DNA of 64,000 nucleotides, taken from the NCBI RefSeq assembly GCF_001636845.1, contig NZ_LITT01000058.1:62001-126000 (forward strand), read 5' to 3'. The DNA is from Clostridium ljungdahlii. Its GTDB lineage: Bacteria; Bacillota; Clostridia; Clostridiales; Clostridiaceae. Both the position numbers and the translations under genes were made by a program. The notes below the pieces were generated by a model, which was given only the letters and a program-made list of their open reading frames with translations, did not search any database and was not told where the DNA came from. Of this stretch, positions 14,339 to 62,857 are shown one piece after another; position 1 is the first letter of the stretch; every line of letters starts with the position of its first letter.

Positions 14339-14956
14339 ATGAGAGATAAGAAAAAAATTATAGGTTCAATTGTTATTTTGATTGTATTTGCTCTATTTTT
14401 AATTATAGGGTATGTGAACTCAAGACCATCCAGTAATACTGCAGTGAAGAGTGAAGAAGTATTTAAAGATCAGGATAATGCTGGAGAAGCCTCTAAAAGT
14501 AAATCAGATAAAGGCATAACCGTATATGTAAATGGAGAAGTTAAAAATCCTGGAGTTTATAAATTGAAAAATGATAGTAGAATACAGGATATTGTAAAGG
14601 AAGCAGGTGGATTTACAGCTGCAGCGGATACAAGTAAACTAAATTTAGCTAAGAAGTTAAAGGATGAAGATTATATATATGTGGACAAAAAAGGAGAGAA
14701 TGGATCAAATAAGGTTGAACCTGGGGGAAAAGGAGGCAGCAGTGGAGGAGTAGAACAGGATGGAAAGGTAAATATAAACAAGGCTTCCAAAGAAGAATTA
14801 AAAACAATATCTGGAGTTGGAGATGTTACTGCCCAAAAGATAATAGACTATAGAGAAAAAAATGGGGATTTTTCTTCTATTGAGGATTTGAAAAAAGTGG
14901 GAAGAATAGGTGATAAAACCATTGAAAAGATAAAGGATAAGATAGAGGTAAGGTAG
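14339..14956 (+). CDS. comEA: ComEA-type DNA-binding competence protein
   Basis: This membrane-anchored DNA receptor has 205 residues: one N-terminal transmembrane helix (about 7-25), a Ser/Asp-rich linker, an SLBB domain (about 58-118, starting ITVYVNGEVKNPGVYKL), a Gly-rich linker, and a helix-hairpin-helix pair (about 140-205, VNINKASKEELKTISGVG and DLKKVGRIGDKTIEKI). In competent Firmicutes it hands dsDNA to the ComEC channel. comEC is also in this window but 45 kb away, so the comE operon is split. AAAGGGG precedes the ATG. Confidence 0.92.
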   Translation: MRDKKKIIGSIVILIVFALFLIIGYVNSRPSSNTAVKSEEVFKDQDNAGEASKSKSDKGITVYVNGEVKNPGVYKLKNDSRIQDIVKEAGGFTAAADTSKLNLAKKLKDEDYIYVDKKGENGSNKVEPGGKGGSSGGVEQDGKVNINKASKEELKTISGVGDVTAQKIIDYREKNGDFSSIEDLKKVGRIGDKTIEKIKDKIEVR

Positions 14957-51635: not shown

Positions 51636-51904
51636 TATAGAGAGAGTTCCTAAGCAAAAAATCAACTTATGCTCCGAATATTTTTTACAAACACAAGCAC
51701 GTTAAATATTTTGATAAGTCTAAGCAGAAAATTTATAAAAACCTAAGGACTTTTGAAAACTCGTACCTCAGACAATTCAAAAGTCCTAAGCTTTTTTATA
51801 AATTTTCCACTAAGACTTATATACAAAATATTTAAATGTGCTTATTTATTGTAAAAATATTTCTATGTATAAGTTGATTTTTAAGTTAGAAAACTTACAC
51901 ATAT
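51636..51904. repeat. Palindromic TIR element, copy C
   Basis: This is the same architecture as the elements at 1332 and 11466. The left end is TATAG with GAGTTCCTAAG, then AAAAAATCAACTTATGCTCC; the right end is ATAAGTTGATTTTTAAG, then TTAGAAAACTTACAC. The interior folds on itself, with GGACTTTTGAA and TTCAAAAGTCC around the tip AACTCGTACCTCAGAC. Relative to copy A, an A-T pair in this stem has become G-C on both arms. It abuts the transposase fragment. Confidence 0.8.
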
Positions 51905-52194
51905 AGGGTTTTCAATTTAAAAGTTAACTCTTCAATACAACTTCTAGAAGAAGGTTTAAACAATCTAGCTTTAAGATAATTCCATATATTCTTCTGAGTA
52001 TTCATATATGGTGAATATCGGGGAAGGTAAATAAGCTTAAGTTTTTCCTTAACCTTTTGGTAAGAAGTTTGAATTAGGAAACTAGTATGATTTTTAGCAT
52101 TATCAAGGAATACAACAACCTTTTTGCCAGGATTAATTTTCATTAAATATTCCAAATGTGATTTTACTTCTTCGTAAAGAAAATATATATACAA
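51895..52194 (-). pseudogene. IS630-family transposase fragment
   Basis: These 99 residues are from the C-terminal half of a Tc1/IS630-type DDE transposase. VVVFLDNAKNHTS holds the second catalytic Asp region, and LIYLPRYSPYMNTQKNIW the third block, in which the expected Glu (NPxE) is Lys. The N-terminal half is gone, and the stop codon lies beyond an end-like TATAGGGTTTTC sequence (51902) inside the adjoining repeat. It is clearly inactive. It may be the relic of the element family that mobilised the palindromic repeats, since their ends look alike. Confidence 0.8.
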
Positions 52195-56123: not shown

Positions 56124-56887
56124 TTAAATTATAAGTAATGTGGCGGCTGTAATAGGAACTAAAAGCATTGCAACTTTTAATATTGGTATAGGTACTCTTT
56201 TTGTAAATTTAGCACCTATATAGGAACCTGTTATTGTACCTACAACTACTTCAATAAGAAGATGTATGTCTAAATATCCTAAGTGATAATATCCAGCTCC
56301 TCCAGCTAAAGCAATAGGTATAATTACCATCATAGTAGTTCCTACAGATTGACGTACTGACATACCTAGAATAAACATCAATCCGATTTGAATAAAACAA
56401 GCAGACCCTATGCCAAACAAACCTGAAATGGCACCTGTAACAAGTCCTATTCCACAGGCACGTATCCAAAAACTCATGCCATTAGGTAAAGAATTATTAT
56501 CCTGAGAAGAATGTCTTTTTTCTATAATAAACATACGAATCCATAAAATTAAGGCTGACAAATATAACATCCCTGAAGTCATCCATTTTAATTCACTAGC
56601 AGGTATAATTGCAGAGAAATTAGAGCTAGTCCAAGAACCAATAGCTCCGAAAATTCCTACGGCAAGTCCCACTTTTAGTACAGCGTCGCCTTCTCTATAG
56701 TGGCTAAAAGCTCCAGATATGGATGAAAAATCATTGCAGCTAAAGCAGTTCCAAGGGATACATGAATGGTAAAACCAAAAATTACAGTCAAAATGGATAT
56801 TATAAATCCAGAACCACCTGCCCCTACAAATCCAAGTGCAATTCCAACTATGAACATTACAAGTATTATCTGTACTGCCAACGTCAT
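56124..56887 (-). pseudogene. TauE/SafE-type sulfite/anion exporter, frameshifted
   Basis: This is a polytopic permease of about 255 residues in two frames. The N-terminal frame gives IALGFVGAGGSGFIISILTV and SLGTALAAMIF; the second frame continues SSISGAFSHYREGDAVLKVG, then IGLVTGAISGLFGIGSACFI and SVGTTMMVIIPIALAGGAGY. Both GxxSGxxG-type halves of the family are otherwise intact. The break is at a run of five A (56726-56730, T on the coding strand); one more base restores a full protein. It may be a real mutation, a phase-variable tract or a sequencing error. Start candidates are the ATG at 56887 or the TTG at 56881. Confidence 0.8.
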
Positions 56888-57059
56888 TCCTTCTTTCAAA
56901 GTAAATATTCAAAAAACTTAACATAATGTTTGCATTATACCATATTTTAGACGTAATATTAAAGTATGTAATATAACTAAACGATTATTAAAAAGATGAT
57001 AATTATATTAAGTATAAATTGCTAATAGCTTTAGACCTGGAAATGGAAGGTGTTAATAT

Positions 57060-59648
57060 ATGATTGAGTGGTACAAACGTTCCTGGAGTGAAATAGTAAA
57101 GGAATTAAATAGTAATACATACTATGGACTTGATGAAGATCAAATTGTCCCGCTTAGGGAAAAATATGGGAAAAATCACATTGCTATGCCGGATAGTAAA
57201 AGTTTGTTTCATCTTATTATGGTGCAGTTTAAGGAGATATGGGTTATATCTTTAATTTTATGTGCTGCCATATTTTCCTACTTAGGTATGTTTATACAGA
57301 CATCTTTGTCTCTACTTATAATATTTTTAAATATTTTTGCTGTAGCACTAGAACAATATAAGGAAGAGAGAAATTTTAAAGAACTGAGAAAATTAAATTT
57401 TGGAATAGCCAGGGTAATAAGAGATGGAAGAACTATGAGGATACCTTTTGAAGAATTGGTAGTAGGAGATATAGTTATAGTTGAACAAGGTCAATTAGTA
57501 CCAGCTGATATGAGAATTATAGAGAGCAATGATTTAAAAATAGATGAATGCTCCGTTACAGGAGAAAGCTTTATATCGGAAAAATATGAATCCAAAATAG
57601 ATGATAATGAACTGACACTTTCAGATATGAAAAATGTACTATTTAAATCATCTTCCGTTGTTTCAGGAGATGGTACAGGAATAGTTATAGCTGTGGGAAT
57701 GGATACTCAAGTAGCTAACATGGTGAAACTTTTACTGAAAGAAGAAGCGGATAGGAAATCTTTTGGTTTTAGGCTCAATAAGATTTTTAATATATTTAGT
57801 GAAATTTTAATTTTTGGTCTTCTAATTGCTGGAGGAGTATCCAATTACATATTTCATCATGAAATCTATTATACCTTAAAGAGAGTAGCAAATGTATATT
57901 TACTTTCCTTGCCTCAGACATTGTCAGTAATAATTTTACTTATGGGAATTATTTTATTTAAAAATCTAGAAAAAAAGAATATAAATTTTAAGGATTTGTC
58001 TAGTGTAGAAAAACTTTCAGAGATATCCACTGTCTGTACAGATAAAGTTGGGGCTTTTTCTAAAAATAAAATGGATATTGTAAAAGCTTATGGAAGTACT
58101 GGATTCATTGATATTAGTGAGGAAGCTTTAGAGGATGGCATACATGAAAGCTTGTATAGAATGATGCATATAGGGCTTCTATGCAATGATGTTAAATCTA
58201 TAAATGGTAATATAGAAAATTCTAGAGAACATTTAGTAGAACAGGCTCTTATAAAATTTTGTCAACAAAATGGAATGGATAAAAAAGATTTAGACAAAAG
58301 ACATAAGAGAGTATTTCAAATTTTATTCGATAGTGAAAGACGTATAATGACAACTGTAAATAGAATGGATGACAAATACAGAGCTCATGTAAAGGGAGCA
58401 GCGGATTCTATCATAGATAGATGTACTCATATGATGAAAAATGGTGTAGAAGTTGATATAACAGAAGAAGATATAAAGGCTATAAAAGATGCGGATATTA
58501 GTATGGCTAATGATTGCCTTTATGTGGTAGCATTTGCCTATAGAAATTTCAACTATGAACCGAGTCCTAAAGAAAATATTGAGAGTAACTTAGTTTTTGT
58601 AGGGTTAATTGGTTTTGATAATATGCTCAAAGAAAATGCAGTAAATTCTATAAAGAAGGCTCTTTCACTTTCCATTAAGCCTATTATAATTACAGAAGAT
58701 AATAAACTTACAGCTTTATCTGTAGGAAAAAAGCTAAATTTTGTATCAAGGCTTTCACAAATAATTTCTGGTGTGGAGATAGATAACATGACAGAAGAAG
58801 AATTTGAACGTATAGGAGGAAAGGTTAGTATTTTTTCTATGATAAATTCTAAGCATAAAGTAAAGATAGTTAAGACTTTAAAAAGTTATGGATATATAAC
58901 TGCTATAACTGGGTGGAAGCTAACGGATTTGCCTGCACTTAAGATGTCTAATGTTGGAATAACTAATACTAAGAGCAACATAGTAAAAAAATTATGTGAT
59001 ATATTTACAGAAAACATGGATTTCATGAGTATTATAGATACCATAGAAGATTCAAGAAAAATTATGCATATGATAAAAAAAATGATTGTGTATATCATAA
59101 GTTGTAGTACCGGCTTTTTTGTGTTTTTAATGATAAGTTTGTTATTCGACCTTAATATTTCGAATAATATGATTGTGGAGTCACTCTGGTTCAACAGTGC
59201 ACTTGTATTTTTATCATCCCTAGCTCTTATGTGTCAGTATAAGGAAGAAGAAGGAGACTATGATACGTATACTATTGATAAAGATATAATTAAAGAAAAC
59301 ATGAGTTTTATTGTTTTTGGAGGATTTTTAATGGGAGTTTTAGCATTTGGAGTTTTTTACTTTGCTAGTATACAAAAAAATAAATTTCCGTTATTTACTT
59401 CTATTTCATTACTAAATACTTGTGCTGTGTTATTTATATACAGTTTTTCAAATGAAAAATTCTTTAATAACATATATTCAAATGCAATTGTAATTATAAA
59501 TGTTATTGTTCAGTTGATTGGTATATTAGTTTTAGGAAACTTTCAAATTTTATTTGACATAAATTACTGGAAAATCTTTTTAATTGGCACTGTCATTTGG
59601 TTTATATTTTGTATGGTCTATAAATTTAGTAAAAATGAGTATGTTTAA
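57060..59648 (+). CDS. P-type ATPase homologue with degenerate catalytic motifs
   Basis: This 862-residue protein has the full layout of a calcium-type cation P-ATPase: cytoplasmic N-terminus (WSEIVKELNSNTYYGL), an actuator loop with TGES (167-170), M4, a phosphorylation and nucleotide-binding domain with KGA (445-447), and about ten helices. Key sites are altered: the DKTGTLT loop reads DKVGAFS (Asp328 kept), the M4 PEGL ion motif reads PQTL, the TGDN motif reads TEDN (545-548), and the hinge GDGxND reads GWKLTD (618-623), losing the first magnesium Asp. It is thus unlikely to pump in the standard way and may be a pseudoenzyme or sensor. The frame is intact over its whole length. It lies just upstream of comEC. 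Confidence 0.85.
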   Translation: MIEWYKRSWSEIVKELNSNTYYGLDEDQIVPLREKYGKNHIAMPDSKSLFHLIMVQFKEIWVISLILCAAIFSYLGMFIQTSLSLLIIFLNIFAVALEQYKEERNFKELRKLNFGIARVIRDGRTMRIPFEELVVGDIVIVEQGQLVPADMRIIESNDLKIDECSVTGESFISEKYESKIDDNELTLSDMKNVLFKSSSVVSGDGTGIVIAVGMDTQVANMVKLLLKEEADRKSFGFRLNKIFNIFSEILIFGLLIAGGVSNYIFHHEIYYTLKRVANVYLLSLPQTLSVIILLMGIILFKNLEKKNINFKDLSSVEKLSEISTVCTDKVGAFSKNKMDIVKAYGSTGFIDISEEALEDGIHESLYRMMHIGLLCNDVKSINGNIENSREHLVEQALIKFCQQNGMDKKDLDKRHKRVFQILFDSERRIMTTVNRMDDKYRAHVKGAADSIIDRCTHMMKNGVEVDITEEDIKAIKDADISMANDCLYVVAFAYRNFNYEPSPKENIESNLVFVGLIGFDNMLKENAVNSIKKALSLSIKPIIITEDNKLTALSVGKKLNFVSRLSQIISGVEIDNMTEEEFERIGGKVSIFSMINSKHKVKIVKTLKSYGYITAITGWKLTDLPALKMSNVGITNTKSNIVKKLCDIFTENMDFMSIIDTIEDSRKIMHMIKKMIVYIISCSTGFFVFLMISLLFDLNISNNMIVESLWFNSALVFLSSLALMCQYKEEEGDYDTYTIDKDIIKENMSFIVFGGFLMGVLAFGVFYFASIQKNKFPLFTSISLLNTCAVLFIYSFSNEKFFNNIYSNAIVIINVIVQLIGILVLGNFQILFDINYWKIFLIGTVIWFIFCMVYKFSKNEYV

Positions 59649-59692
59649 CCTGTTATTTTTTGGATAATATAAAGTAACAGGAGGTGGATTTT

Positions 59693-59743
59693 TTGACTTT
59701 ATTATATTATGATTATTACTACAATAGGTTAAGGAAGATATGA
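59693..59743 (+). CDS. 16-residue Tyr-rich mini-ORF coupled to comEC
   Basis: A strong AGGAGGTGG (59679-59687) precedes a TTG start by 5 bases. The frame encodes MTLLYYDYYYNRLRKI and stops at TGA 59741-59743, which overlaps the comEC ATG (ATGA). Five of sixteen residues are Tyr, in a block. The arrangement is that of a leader peptide whose translation feeds into comEC by re-initiation. No family is known to me. The support is the ribosome site, spacing and overlap only. Confidence 0.5.
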   Translation: MTLLYYDYYYNRLRKI

Positions 59744-61518
59744 AAAGACCATTGGTGTTTTACTCTATCTCCTTGGCGTTAGGGTCTTTGTCTGCTTTAG
59801 TATTTTTAGATAATGTTTTTATAGCTGCAGCAATAGCAGCTTCTTTTTTTATAATAATGTTTTATACTTTGAAGATTAAATTCTGTATTTTAAGTGCTAT
59901 TTTTTTTATTTTTGGAGTGGTAAGTTTCAATATGTATTTTAATATACGGCCCCAAGATCCTTCTCAAATTAGGGTAGTGGAAAAGAAAAGCTACTATTTT
60001 ATAGGAGATTATAGAGGAAGAAAAATCATACTAAAAAATAAATTGGATAAGCTAAAGGAAGGAGAGAATATAAAGGTATATGGTGATTTTAAGAGAGAAT
60101 TAAATGCACAAAAAGGTATAATAGGCACTTACTATATAAAAAAATATGAGACTGGAAAAAAAGATTTTATATATTCCATATATGAATTTAAAAGAAATAT
60201 ATATGAAAAGTTTAAAGAAGTGATAGGTGAAGAAAGATCAGCTCTTGTTATGGCATTATGCTATGGTGAAACTTCATACATTAGTCAAGATGAAATGCAG
60301 AAGTTTCAAAAACTTGGAGTAATTCATGCAGTAAGTGTGTCAGGTTTTCATATGGCTATAATATACCAGGTATTGGAGAGTATAGTAGGACTTAAAATAG
60401 CTGTGATTGTATCAGCACTTTATGTATTTTTTACGGGCATGGCAGCTGCAACTATGAGATCATTTATAATGATATTCTTATTTAAATTATCAAAAATATT
60501 TTTTAAAGAATATGATAGCATATCCTCTCTCAGCTTGTCAGCTCTGATTTTAATAACTGTAAAACCATATTATATAGTGGATTTAGGATTTGACCTTTCT
60601 TTTTTAGCAACTCTTGGAATACTTCTGTACAATGGGAAAATTTATAGAAAACTTTTTATGCTTCCACAAAAATTGGCCTCCAGTATGAGTCTAACTTTTA
60701 GTTCTCAAATATTTACTCTACCCTATATTGCATTTACAATTCAAAATTTCAGCTGGGGATTTATGCTTGGCAATTTATTTTTGCTTCCCCTTTTTTCAAT
60801 TATAGTTGTTTTAGGAAATGCTGCACTTTGTGTATGCTTTGTAGAACCTTTATTTAAATTATTGTGTAAAGCTATGGAAGTTATTTTTACTGCCATAGAT
60901 GGTGCCAATATGGTTGTTTTGAAACTATGTCCTGAAGTTATATATTTAAAGTATATAGACGGACTTGCCTTTATTGCAGTATTTGTAAGCTTCCTAATGT
61001 ATAAAAAAGGATATAGAAAATTAAAATATGTTCCAATAGTATGTTTTATTTTAGTATTTTTAGGAGTTTATACACCATTTATGAATATAACTTTTATAAA
61101 TAATGACAATGGAAAGGCTGCAATTATAAAACAGGGAATAAGTAAAGTTATGATATGCAGCTATGATGACTTTCATTCCAGTTGGATAACAAATATAAAA
61201 GATGATCAGTATATAGGAAAAGTAATAACCAATCCTGTAAAAAACTTTACCTATATAATAAATAGTAATTCCTATTTAAAGATAGATAATGATATGAATT
61301 CCAAACTTCATGTAAAGAATAAAGAGTTCCAAATTCTATTTGATGATGGAAATAAAAATGATACTGAAGTTTTTAATAGAAACAATTGCATATTTATTTC
61401 TAGAATTAAATCTAAAAATAAAAATGCAACTAAAAAGTATGAAAATCCACTAGAAGGCAGTACTTCTTATGTTATAATATTTAATATGATTTTTAAAATA
61501 CCTACAATATGCGATTAA
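59740..61518 (+). CDS. comEC: ComEC/Rec2 DNA uptake channel, lacking the hydrolase domain motifs
   Basis: This 592-residue membrane channel takes up single-stranded DNA during competence. There are N-terminal helices, an OB-like outer loop (about 75-145), then the Competence domain (about 165-450) with MALCYGETSYIS and GVIHAVSVSGFHMAII. Typical ComEC proteins end in a metallo-beta-lactamase-like nuclease domain of about 250 residues; here only about 145 residues follow the last helix, and after ITFINNDNGKAAIIKQG no HxHxDH metal motif appears. The start overlaps the stop of a mini-ORF. Uptake function is therefore uncertain. Confidence 0.88.
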   Translation: MKRPLVFYSISLALGSLSALVFLDNVFIAAAIAASFFIIMFYTLKIKFCILSAIFFIFGVVSFNMYFNIRPQDPSQIRVVEKKSYYFIGDYRGRKIILKNKLDKLKEGENIKVYGDFKRELNAQKGIIGTYYIKKYETGKKDFIYSIYEFKRNIYEKFKEVIGEERSALVMALCYGETSYISQDEMQKFQKLGVIHAVSVSGFHMAIIYQVLESIVGLKIAVIVSALYVFFTGMAAATMRSFIMIFLFKLSKIFFKEYDSISSLSLSALILITVKPYYIVDLGFDLSFLATLGILLYNGKIYRKLFMLPQKLASSMSLTFSSQIFTLPYIAFTIQNFSWGFMLGNLFLLPLFSIIVVLGNAALCVCFVEPLFKLLCKAMEVIFTAIDGANMVVLKLCPEVIYLKYIDGLAFIAVFVSFLMYKKGYRKLKYVPIVCFILVFLGVYTPFMNITFINNDNGKAAIIKQGISKVMICSYDDFHSSWITNIKDDQYIGKVITNPVKNFTYIINSNSYLKIDNDMNSKLHVKNKEFQILFDDGNKNDTEVFNRNNCIFISRIKSKNKNATKKYENPLEGSTSYVIIFNMIFKIPTICD

Positions 61519-61535: not shown

Positions 61536-62561
61536 TTGATAGACATATTTACCTTTGAAAAAAATTTAGAAAAGGGAGATTTGAGGAATTGTTACTTGTT
61601 TTGTGGTATAGATGAACTACTTATAAAAGAAAATATAAAAGCTTTAATTAAAAAAGTTATAAATCCTAATTTTATGGATTTAAATTATATGAAATTTGAT
61701 GGAAGTTCACTTGAAAGTTTTGATCCTGTAATAAATGCCTGTGAGACACTGCCTTTTATGAGTGAAAAAAAAGTTGTACTTGTATATAGAGCTTCTTTTT
61801 TTGGTGAAGATAAAAATAAATTGTCCACTGAATTTAAGAGCATACACAGTTACTTGAAAAACCTACCTAAGCACTGCATTTTAATATTTTACTATGTATT
61901 TAAAAGTAAAAGAGATAAACCAGGAAGAAAAATATATAGCGTTGACAAGGACATTTGTGTTGTAAAAGCTGACAAGGTAAAGGGAAAACAGCTGGAAAAT
62001 AAAGTTCAAGAATTTTTCTATGAGCGTGGAAAAGATATAAAAAAATTGGATTTAAGGATATTCTGCAGCCTTATGAACGAAAATAATTTGAGTATAATAG
62101 AAAATGAAGTAGAAAAATTGTGCTGTTATACTTATGGAAGAAATATAGAGAGAGAAGACATGAAAAAGATGTTTTTAAGAAGCGGTGATGAGGATATATT
62201 TGATTTGGTAAATGCAATATCTGATAAAAAGATAAAAGATGCACTTTACATGTTAAATGAACTCATGTATAAAGGGTATAAAATAAGCTATATTTTATCT
62301 ATGGTAGAGAGACAGTTCAACCTTCTTTTTAAAATAAAAATGTGCCTGGAAGAGAGAATAACCAAAGAAGAAATCATGAAAGAATTAAACATAAAATCAG
62401 AATATGGTTACAGCATTATGGTAAAACAGAGTAAAAAGTTTACAATAAATCAACTAAAAAAAGCGGTGGTATTGTGTTTGAATACAGAAAAGAGAATAAA
62501 GAGCTTATCTATAGATGAAAAAACTGAAATGGAACTTTTGATAATAAATACAACTGCATAA
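61536..62561 (+). CDS. holA: DNA polymerase III delta subunit
   Basis: This 341-residue clamp-loader subunit opens the sliding clamp. The N-terminal part reads NCYLFCGIDELLIKENIKAL (a P-loop-free AAA-like fold), followed by NYMKFDGSSLESFDPVINACETLPFMSEKKVVLV, which is the family pattern. The C-terminal helical collar contains FDLVNAISDKKIKDALYMLNEL and QFNLLFKIK. The start is TTG with GGAAGTGAG upstream. The comEC-holA-rpsT order is conserved in Firmicutes. The rpsT gene converges through a terminator. Confidence 0.92.
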   Translation: MIDIFTFEKNLEKGDLRNCYLFCGIDELLIKENIKALIKKVINPNFMDLNYMKFDGSSLESFDPVINACETLPFMSEKKVVLVYRASFFGEDKNKLSTEFKSIHSYLKNLPKHCILIFYYVFKSKRDKPGRKIYSVDKDICVVKADKVKGKQLENKVQEFFYERGKDIKKLDLRIFCSLMNENNLSIIENEVEKLCCYTYGRNIEREDMKKMFLRSGDEDIFDLVNAISDKKIKDALYMLNELMYKGYKISYILSMVERQFNLLFKIKMCLEERITKEEIMKELNIKSEYGYSIMVKQSKKFTINQLKKAVVLCLNTEKRIKSLSIDEKTEMELLIINTTA

Positions 62562-62562
62562 T

Positions 62563-62596
62563 AAATAACCGGTTAAAACCGGTTTATTTATTATGC
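62563..62596. terminator. Bidirectional terminator between holA and rpsT
   Basis: AATAAATAACCGGTT and AACCGGTTTATTTATT pair across a short AAA centre. The T-rich and A-rich ends let it work on both strands; it overlaps the last codons of rpsT. Confidence 0.85.
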
Positions 62597-62857
62597 AGTT
62601 AATTTATTTAACTTAAAAGCCAATTTAGATTTATTTCTTGATGCTTTATTTTTGTGGATTATACCTTTTGATTCAGCCATATCCAAAGCTTTTACAGCTG
62701 CTGTAAAATTAACTTTAGCTTCTTCTACGTTTTTAGTTTCAACAGAAGCTAAGAATTTTTTTATAGTAGTCTTTAATGAAGACTTTATAATTTTATTTCT
62801 AAGTGTTTTTGTTTCAATAACTTTTATTCTTTTTTTTGCTGATTTTATATTTGCCAT
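62591..62857 (-). CDS. rpsT: Small ribosomal subunit protein bS20
   Basis: This 88-residue 30S protein is Lys/Ala-rich and helical, of normal length, starting [21 protein letters not shown] and ending with the [17 protein letters not shown] block. On its strand AGGGGGTGAAAG precedes the ATG. It is transcribed alone from a promoter at about 62938-62966. The untranslated leader of about 70 bases (62858-62930) has a GTTTCCCCAACGCTGTT stretch that could pair with the purine-rich ribosome site, hinting at autoregulation. Confidence 0.97.

Follow-up and report, generated by a model that had tools for sequence, protein, structure and literature searches.

Why should a clostridium keep, directly ahead of a competence gene, a full-length cation pump gene in which most catalytic motifs have been altered? 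The question is raised by a stretch of 64,000 nucleotides (nt) from Clostridium ljungdahlii (contig NZ_LITT01000058.1, positions 62,001 to 126,000), referred to below as the window. Its gene at 57060..59648 (+ strand) is open from ATG to stop, as an earlier note made from the sequence of this DNA had described, and encodes a protein of 862 residues with a P-type ATPase fold and without the full catalytic set. We call this protein the pseudopump. Our reading is that a cation pump whose gene lay at the comE locus probably turned into a non-pumping protein, which has since been kept by purifying selection. Loss of catalysis and upkeep of the gene are well supported; a link to ComEC we infer from synteny, observed at 133 of 136 loci.

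Catalytic motifs in the window copy and its relatives

Homology and fold place the protein in the P-type ATPase superfamily, with actuator (A), phosphorylation (P), nucleotide (N) and membrane domains. Pfam matches comprise the actuator (PF00122), the nucleotide domain (PF13246) and the N-terminal domain (PF00690), while HAD Hydrolase and Cation_ATPase_C gave no match at an E-value of 0.001. The best NCBIfam model is that of the PMR1-type Ca2+ pumps (TIGR01522), at 304.5 bits against a curated cut-off of 798.3, and the solved structure nearest by sequence is Listeria LMCA1 (6zhf, E 2.8e-97). Domain order and fold are thus common to the pseudopump and to type 2A (PMR1/SERCA-like) Ca2+ pumps such as LMCA1 (lmo0841). 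Unlike these pumps, the window copy lacks Asp703 as well as the Gly of TGD, the threonines of DKTGT and the majority of the ion ligands in membrane segments M4 to M6.

Residues named here by SERCA numbering stand for the equivalent positions; Asp351 is the phosphorylated residue, and Asp703 and Asp707 are the first and second Asp of GDGxND. All motifs quoted in the earlier note are present as given, each on the + strand. TGES (residues 167-170, 57558..57569), the dephosphorylation loop of active enzymes, is intact, as is KGA (445-447, 58392..58400), and the adenine-pocket motif of the N domain reads FDSER (423-427, 58326..58340). DKVGAFS (328-334, 58041..58061) replaces DKTGTLT, so that the DKTGT of active enzymes is missing although its Asp stays as D328, the equivalent of Asp351. 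The Mg2+ loop GDGxND of active enzymes is replaced by GWKLTD (618-623, 58911..58928), in which the first Asp has become W619 (Asp703) and the second is kept as D623 (Asp707). TEDN (545-548, 58692..58703) stands in place of TGD, with Gly626 changed, and PQTL (285-288, 57912..57923) in place of PEGL in M4. The ion ligands of SERCA are Glu309 in M4, Glu771 in M5 and Asn796, Thr799 and Asp800 in M6. Their places are taken by Q286, F686, N712, L715 and V716, in that order, and with Asn796 alone kept the window copy does not possess the ligand set of a PMR1/SERCA-type Ca2+ pump. The loss of catalytic motifs proposed in the earlier note is real for the first Asp of GDGxND, the DKTGT Thr residues, the TGD Gly and most of the ion site; it does not extend to D328 and D623.

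Nor is the loss peculiar to the window genome, since relatives carry the same or further changes. The copy of C. ragsdalei P11 is 97% identical, and one full-length orthologue without internal stops was found in each of 12 other genomes of the genus (53-97% identity). GWKLTD is present in 12 of the 13 genus rows and GYRLTD in the remaining one; 12 rows retain the Asp of DK[VI]G, and all 13 have TGE, KGA and FDxxR. Because other genus genomes carry the same motifs, sequencing error is ruled out as their cause. Seventeen rows of other P-type pumps came from genus genomes; four, from the opposite strand, were unread in that comparison, and all 13 readable ones retain DKTGT and GDGxND.

A first profile, built from the 13 genus rows, found matches in 69 of 206 Clostridiaceae genomes. 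From genomes without a match, 40 more holA/comEC loci were read, which added 24 divergent members and left 16 loci without a pseudopump (one of them, L141, ends at a contig end). A wider profile of 54 rows matched 138 of 225 genomes of the order, including the canonical pump of a genome from another family (G217). The pseudopump is present in 137 of the 206 Clostridiaceae genomes, belonging to 33 of 46 genera. With this profile, canonical pumps score at most 669 bits and pseudopump members at least 676, except for the copy of G183, which begins at a contig end and scored 643 and 660 bits in two profile searches. Because the two ranges nearly touch, the motifs of every match were read. No pseudopump was found outside Clostridiaceae: only canonical pumps passed in the rest of the order (G217) and among 391 genomes drawn from the class (G408), and only the window's genome and G142, both Clostridiaceae, among 398 genomes drawn from the phylum.

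Motif states were compared over 136 members, that is, the 137 family genomes with a pseudopump minus the C. ragsdalei near-copy, and seven canonical rows. When 14 catalytic residues are scored, all seven canonical rows retain 14 and pseudopump members between 4 and 10. The Asp351 place holds D in 87 members, E in 22, K in 16, N in 8, P in 2 and G in 1; the phosphorylated Asp is therefore absent from 49. At least 18 changes of state have occurred there on a quick tree, which was built with the motif columns included and whose count does not separate loss from gain. Asp703 is D in 23 members, and both aspartates occur together in 4. Thr353 (3 members), Gly626 (1), Gly704 (1) and Asn706 (3) are nearly lost, the Gly626 place being Glu or Asp in 129. 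Thr799 is lost in 114 members and kept in 22. Glu309 is lost in 87 and kept in 5 of 92 members, counted in a 92-member alignment because the larger one has 52 gaps at that column. Other positions hardly vary: Lys352 (Lys329 of the window copy) is found in all 136, Asp627 is D or E in 136 and Asp707 in 134. At the TGES positions, T (Thr181) occurs in 135 members, G in 134, E in 95 and S in 7.

Upkeep of the gene

The earlier note had proposed a test by the ratio of nonsynonymous to synonymous substitution rates (dN/dS), and the ratio turned out low. By the Nei-Gojobori method, 23 species pairs, not all of them independent, gave ratios of 0.074-0.260 (pseudopump), 0.107-0.357 (comEC) and 0.031-0.137 (holA); some of the pairs have dS above 1, and their values are rough. 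The pseudopump lies below comEC in 17 of the 23 pairs. A canonical pump gave 0.13 and 0.08 in two pairs. Purifying selection is thus combined with loss of catalytic residues, the mark of a pseudoenzyme.

Domain identities of the pseudopump and of a canonical pump were compared in the same 12 genomes (one row being the C. ragsdalei record), with domain limits set by hand. Over the whole protein, identity is 0.62 for the pseudopump and 0.78 for the canonical pump. The membrane segments of the pseudopump are the more variable ones (M1-M2, 0.46 vs 0.79; M3-M4, 0.37 vs 0.84; M5-M6, 0.52 vs 0.89; M7-M10, 0.48 vs 0.75), and the N domain (0.67 vs 0.65) and A domain (0.74 vs 0.78) are kept alike in both proteins. 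At the N-P hinge, between nucleotide and phosphorylation domains, lies a family signature, AYRNFNYEPSPKENIESNL (residues 493-511, 58536..58592, + strand). Its strict pattern, AYR[NS]FxYxP[ST]xxENIE[SN]N[LM], occurs in 125 of 136 members and in none of the seven canonical rows; within the core YRNFxYxPSxxENIESN, the R, the second Y, the P and the last E are found in all 136. An old constraint lost and a new one gained, as the alignments suggest, is what repurposing predicts.

Could this nevertheless be a decaying pseudogene, a pump gene free of selection and caught before loss of its frame? Lost catalytic motifs and variable transmembrane segments would fit. A gene in decay would hardly be carried by 137 of 206 family genomes with dN/dS of 0.07-0.26, low also across genera, keep A and N domains about as conserved as those of a working pump, and acquire a new invariant motif. 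We reject simple decay on dN/dS, spread and domain pattern, and regard it as barely credible. The suggestion of the earlier note, a maintained, repurposed and non-pumping protein, gains support from the recurrence in relatives, the low dN/dS and the sister species, in none of which the pseudopump gene has canonical motifs; these appear at the same place only in a sister family (see below). Judged from its sequence, the pseudopump is almost certainly catalytically dead and maintained.

Residual activity has to be considered as well. The protein might pump by an unorthodox chemistry, with D328 phosphorylated where it is kept and a rearranged metal site, as has been claimed for human ERMA/TMEM94. 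The window copy still has D328, K329, D547, D623, KGA and TGE, and ERMA is reported to take up Mg2+, an activity abolished by D427N (PMC13322241). Such chemistry is hard to reconcile with the 49 relatives devoid of Asp351 and the repeated changes of state at that place, with the loss of Glu309 in nearly all members counted and of Thr799 and Asp800 in the window copy, and with the report that TMEM94 has no ATPase activity (PMC12134183). We consider pumping of this kind very unlikely.

The locus in Clostridiaceae and in a sister family

The state from which a non-pumping protein may have arisen is suggested by a sister family of the same order (f2; 17 genomes, 15 with a ComEC match). In 11 of these 15, comEC is preceded by a P-type ATPase gene of the same strand, which mostly lies 0.4-1.3 kb away; in G217 a short open reading frame (ORF) stands between the two. 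In a twelfth genome (G218) pump and comEC are at the ends of different contigs, and in G210, G211 and G213 no P-type pump was found in the stretch read at comEC. The nine complete f2 locus pumps all have TGES, PEGL, DKTGTLT, KGA, TGDH and GDGVND intact; the pumps of G219 (cut) and G221 (broken) are outside this count. These canonical pumps (L256-L264) share strand and position with the pseudopump, likely the ancestral state, and differ from it in the six intact motifs and in their distance from comEC.

The f2 ComEC, unlike that of Clostridiaceae, has the nuclease motifs [DN]VGQGD and HxHxDH, both at 14 of 15 loci (the gene of G221 is broken), with Lactamase_B matches in three of three tested. 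HxHxDH or DxGQGD motifs were found in none of 107 Clostridiaceae ComEC ORFs read, which include a few fragments, and Pfam recognizes the Competence domain only in five of five tested. That ComEC of Clostridiaceae has lost Lactamase_B and DUF4131 is already published (PMC6299819). Because canonical pump and nuclease-bearing ComEC stand together at the f2 locus, a working pump and a complete ComEC were probably present there in the common ancestor, and Clostridiaceae would have lost both activities.

In phylogenetic trees, pseudopumps form one clade (100/100) with a very long stem. The placement trees, which took in 23 and 12 of the 136 members, do not place this clade firmly among canonical pumps. 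An AlphaFold2 model of the window pseudopump, made with the 54-row alignment, has a complete P-type fold (predicted local distance difference test score, pLDDT, 86.3; predicted template modelling score 0.82). In shape it is closest to four SERCA E2 structures (template modelling score 0.85-0.87 by query length), with root-mean-square deviations of 3.1-3.4 over about 850 residues (2oa0, 4ycm, 8owa, 5zmv). The deviation is 5-6 for E2P-like analogues, 6.5-6.8 for MgtA in an E1-like state and 8.5-9.4 for SERCA and LMCA1 E1 structures; it is 10.3 for 5zmw, titled E2(TG), a row that looks mislabelled. A control model, built from 15 rows for a canonical f2 pump, was of low quality (pLDDT 72, and under 50 across large parts of the A domain). 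Since it does not allow comparison, a locked E2-like state of the pseudopump is a suggestion only, and we rest nothing on it.

Pseudopump and ComEC

The earlier note saw a possible link to the neighbouring comEC. The substitutions do recur beside comEC, which lies downstream of the pseudopump gene on the same strand at 133 of 136 loci, the exceptions being two contig ends and G063; the link itself is a matter of synteny and has counter-examples, given below. The distance between the two genes ranges from -35 to 696 nt (median 59) and is at most 100 nt at 79 loci, and holA follows at 131 of the 136. In the window, comEC occupies 59740..61518 (+), with a Competence domain match (PF03772) only and no match to Lactamase_B, and holA (DNA polymerase III delta) occupies 61536..62561 (+). 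An ORF of 88 residues at 62591..62857 (-) is, to judge by its sequence, presumably rpsT (ribosomal protein S20). PF03772 was found in 200 of the 206 family genomes, which makes a presence/absence correlation between pseudopump and comEC uninformative.

The competence gene comEA is found within 5 kb upstream of the pseudopump gene, on the same strand, at 27 of 68 loci, with less than 150 nt between them at 5 of these. It scores over the cut-off in 28 of 30 genomes tested, 20 of them Clostridiaceae. In the window genome it lies at 14339..14956 (+), about 42 kb upstream of the pseudopump gene (14956 to 57060), compared with 2.5 kb in G003, G004 and G011. This distance points to a large insertion or rearrangement of the comE region in the window genome.

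Immediately ahead of comEC, at 59649..59687 (+), an inverted repeat CCTGTTA/TAACAGG runs into the Shine-Dalgarno sequence, AGGAGGTGG; five aligned genus loci are similar. Over 59649-59743 the stem leads into a strong Shine-Dalgarno sequence and a T run, and a leader ORF of 16 codons, from TTG at 59693 to TGA at 59743, overlaps the comEC ATG in the window clade, as read by eye. Stem and leader ORF make translational control of comEC possible. A scan of 56900-59900 gave 17 promoter-like sites, with 21 expected, and a sole terminator-like site, at 59823-59841, inside comEC.

Two comEC genes elsewhere deserve mention. Among the genomes listed, each has a single PF03772 match except G058, whose second ComEC-like ORF (contig C1:72045-72821; 820 residues) is long enough for a full-length protein; it may have been acquired or may be contamination (7% listed). 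In G047 (L225, 4977-6247) comEC is seemingly in two ORFs near a contig end, and the adjoining pseudopump gene is intact.

Several observations weigh against our reading of a non-pumping protein derived at this locus and connected with ComEC. Firstly, with regard to catalysis, D328 and D623 are still in the window copy, and Asn796 is N in 117 and Glu771 is E in 69 of the 136 members, points that also favor an unorthodox pump. Secondly, constraint is not uniformly strong: dN/dS of the pseudopump exceeds that of holA in most pairs, the old phosphorylation-site segment has an identity of 0.67 against 0.93 in the canonical pump, and the remaining P domain 0.76 against 0.85. Thirdly, the grouping of pseudopumps with the f2 locus pumps is weakly supported (77/69) and their union with other PMR1-type pumps is not rejected (p 0.36); conversion in situ therefore rests on synteny. 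Finally, 69 of 206 family genomes have no pseudopump match at the threshold. Seventeen comEC loci read are without pseudopump (the 16 mentioned above, of which one is cut by a contig end, and that of G171), so ComEC does not need it, and in G063 the pseudopump gene is intact with comEC on another contig. Because adjacency already exists in the sister family, it may be inherited inertia.

These last points lend themselves to another explanation, namely that the protein senses nucleotide or phosphate, has nothing to do with competence and stands beside comEC only by its inherited locus. Adjacency is older than the loss of catalysis, and the two genes are separable. Much of the relevant site is also retained: Gly516 of KGA in 136 of 136 members (with Lys or Arg at the first place of the motif in 117), Glu442 as E or D in 135, Lys352 in all, and Lys684 as K or R in 133. 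Arg560 is, however, lost in 131 members, and no more than 82 have Phe or Tyr at the Phe487 place; the binding of nucleotide may thereby be weakened, which weighs somewhat against a sensor, and we make no claim that an intact nucleotide site proves the sensing of ATP. Close linkage with comEC over 33 genera also speaks for more than inheritance of a locus. We think a sensor of this kind unlikely, though it deserves to be taken seriously.

Our preferred reading, a pump turned into a retained non-pumping protein, can be put as a sequence of steps. In the common ancestor, the comE locus would have included the gene of an ordinary type-2 cation pump. On the Clostridiaceae stem this pump would have lost the chemistry of phosphoryl transfer and the greater part of its ion ligands, and purifying selection would then have retained it as a membrane protein that does not pump. 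The present pseudopump would be inactive, with a membrane part serving mainly as an anchor and a cytosolic head that acts, by way of its new surface at the N-P hinge, as scaffold or regulator. The most likely partner would be the co-encoded, nuclease-less ComEC channel. That the pseudopump works with ComEC/ComEA is a fair conjecture from gene order, which we stop just short of calling probable. More tentatively still, the ancestral pump could have served the metal-dependent nuclease of ComEC, and with loss of that nuclease and of the pump engine it could have become locked and non-transporting, a partner protein to the channel for DNA uptake, having gained a new and conserved surface at the hinge; this elaborate scenario is possible, and we hold it to be doubtful.

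Some further features of the genome may be recorded. The TauE/SafE-like gene at 56124-56924 (-) has about 60 initial residues that look out of frame, and its Pfam match begins at residue 66, at profile position 46. A fragment of 99 residues at 51895-52194 (-) gives the impression of coming from the C-terminal portion of a DDE transposase. Elsewhere in the same genome (contig C47:13368-15901), a further P-type ATPase gene is split into two overlapping ORFs of 128 and 774 residues, whereas in G006 and G008 the second-best match is in each case one long frame.

In the searches made of the open PubMed Central literature we found no account of the pseudopump gene or of a bacterial family of P-type pseudoenzymes. 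A parallel is human TMEM94/ERMA, a P-type fold in which DKTGT is replaced by DKQGI(L) and GDGVND by GSSANL (PMC12134183, PMC13322241). It is a eukaryotic protein of the endoplasmic reticulum without TGES, and its activity is disputed between these two reports, Mg2+ uptake in the latter standing against absence of ATPase activity in the former. The clostridial protein is bacterial, is encoded beside com genes, and retains Lys352 throughout and TG[E/D] in the majority of members. Apicomplexan PfGC-alpha/beta likewise have a degenerate P-type domain in a protein with another function; that domain is of P4 type and fused to guanylate cyclase, being neither stand-alone nor bacterial (PMC6592433).

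The P-type ATPases of the textbooks are pumps. Catalytically dead ones have seldom been documented and, as with TMEM94, are subject to dispute. The routine annotation of the pseudopump as a cation-transporting ATPase is probably wrong. With long frames, purifying selection, the Asp replaced in a third of members and canonical counterparts in f2, this family, found in more than 130 bacterial species, offers a natural experiment on what becomes of the P-type fold once pumping ceases. To our knowledge, natural transformation is hardly known in Clostridiaceae, and the pseudopump bears on the question of why these bacteria keep comEA and a comEC that has lost its nuclease.

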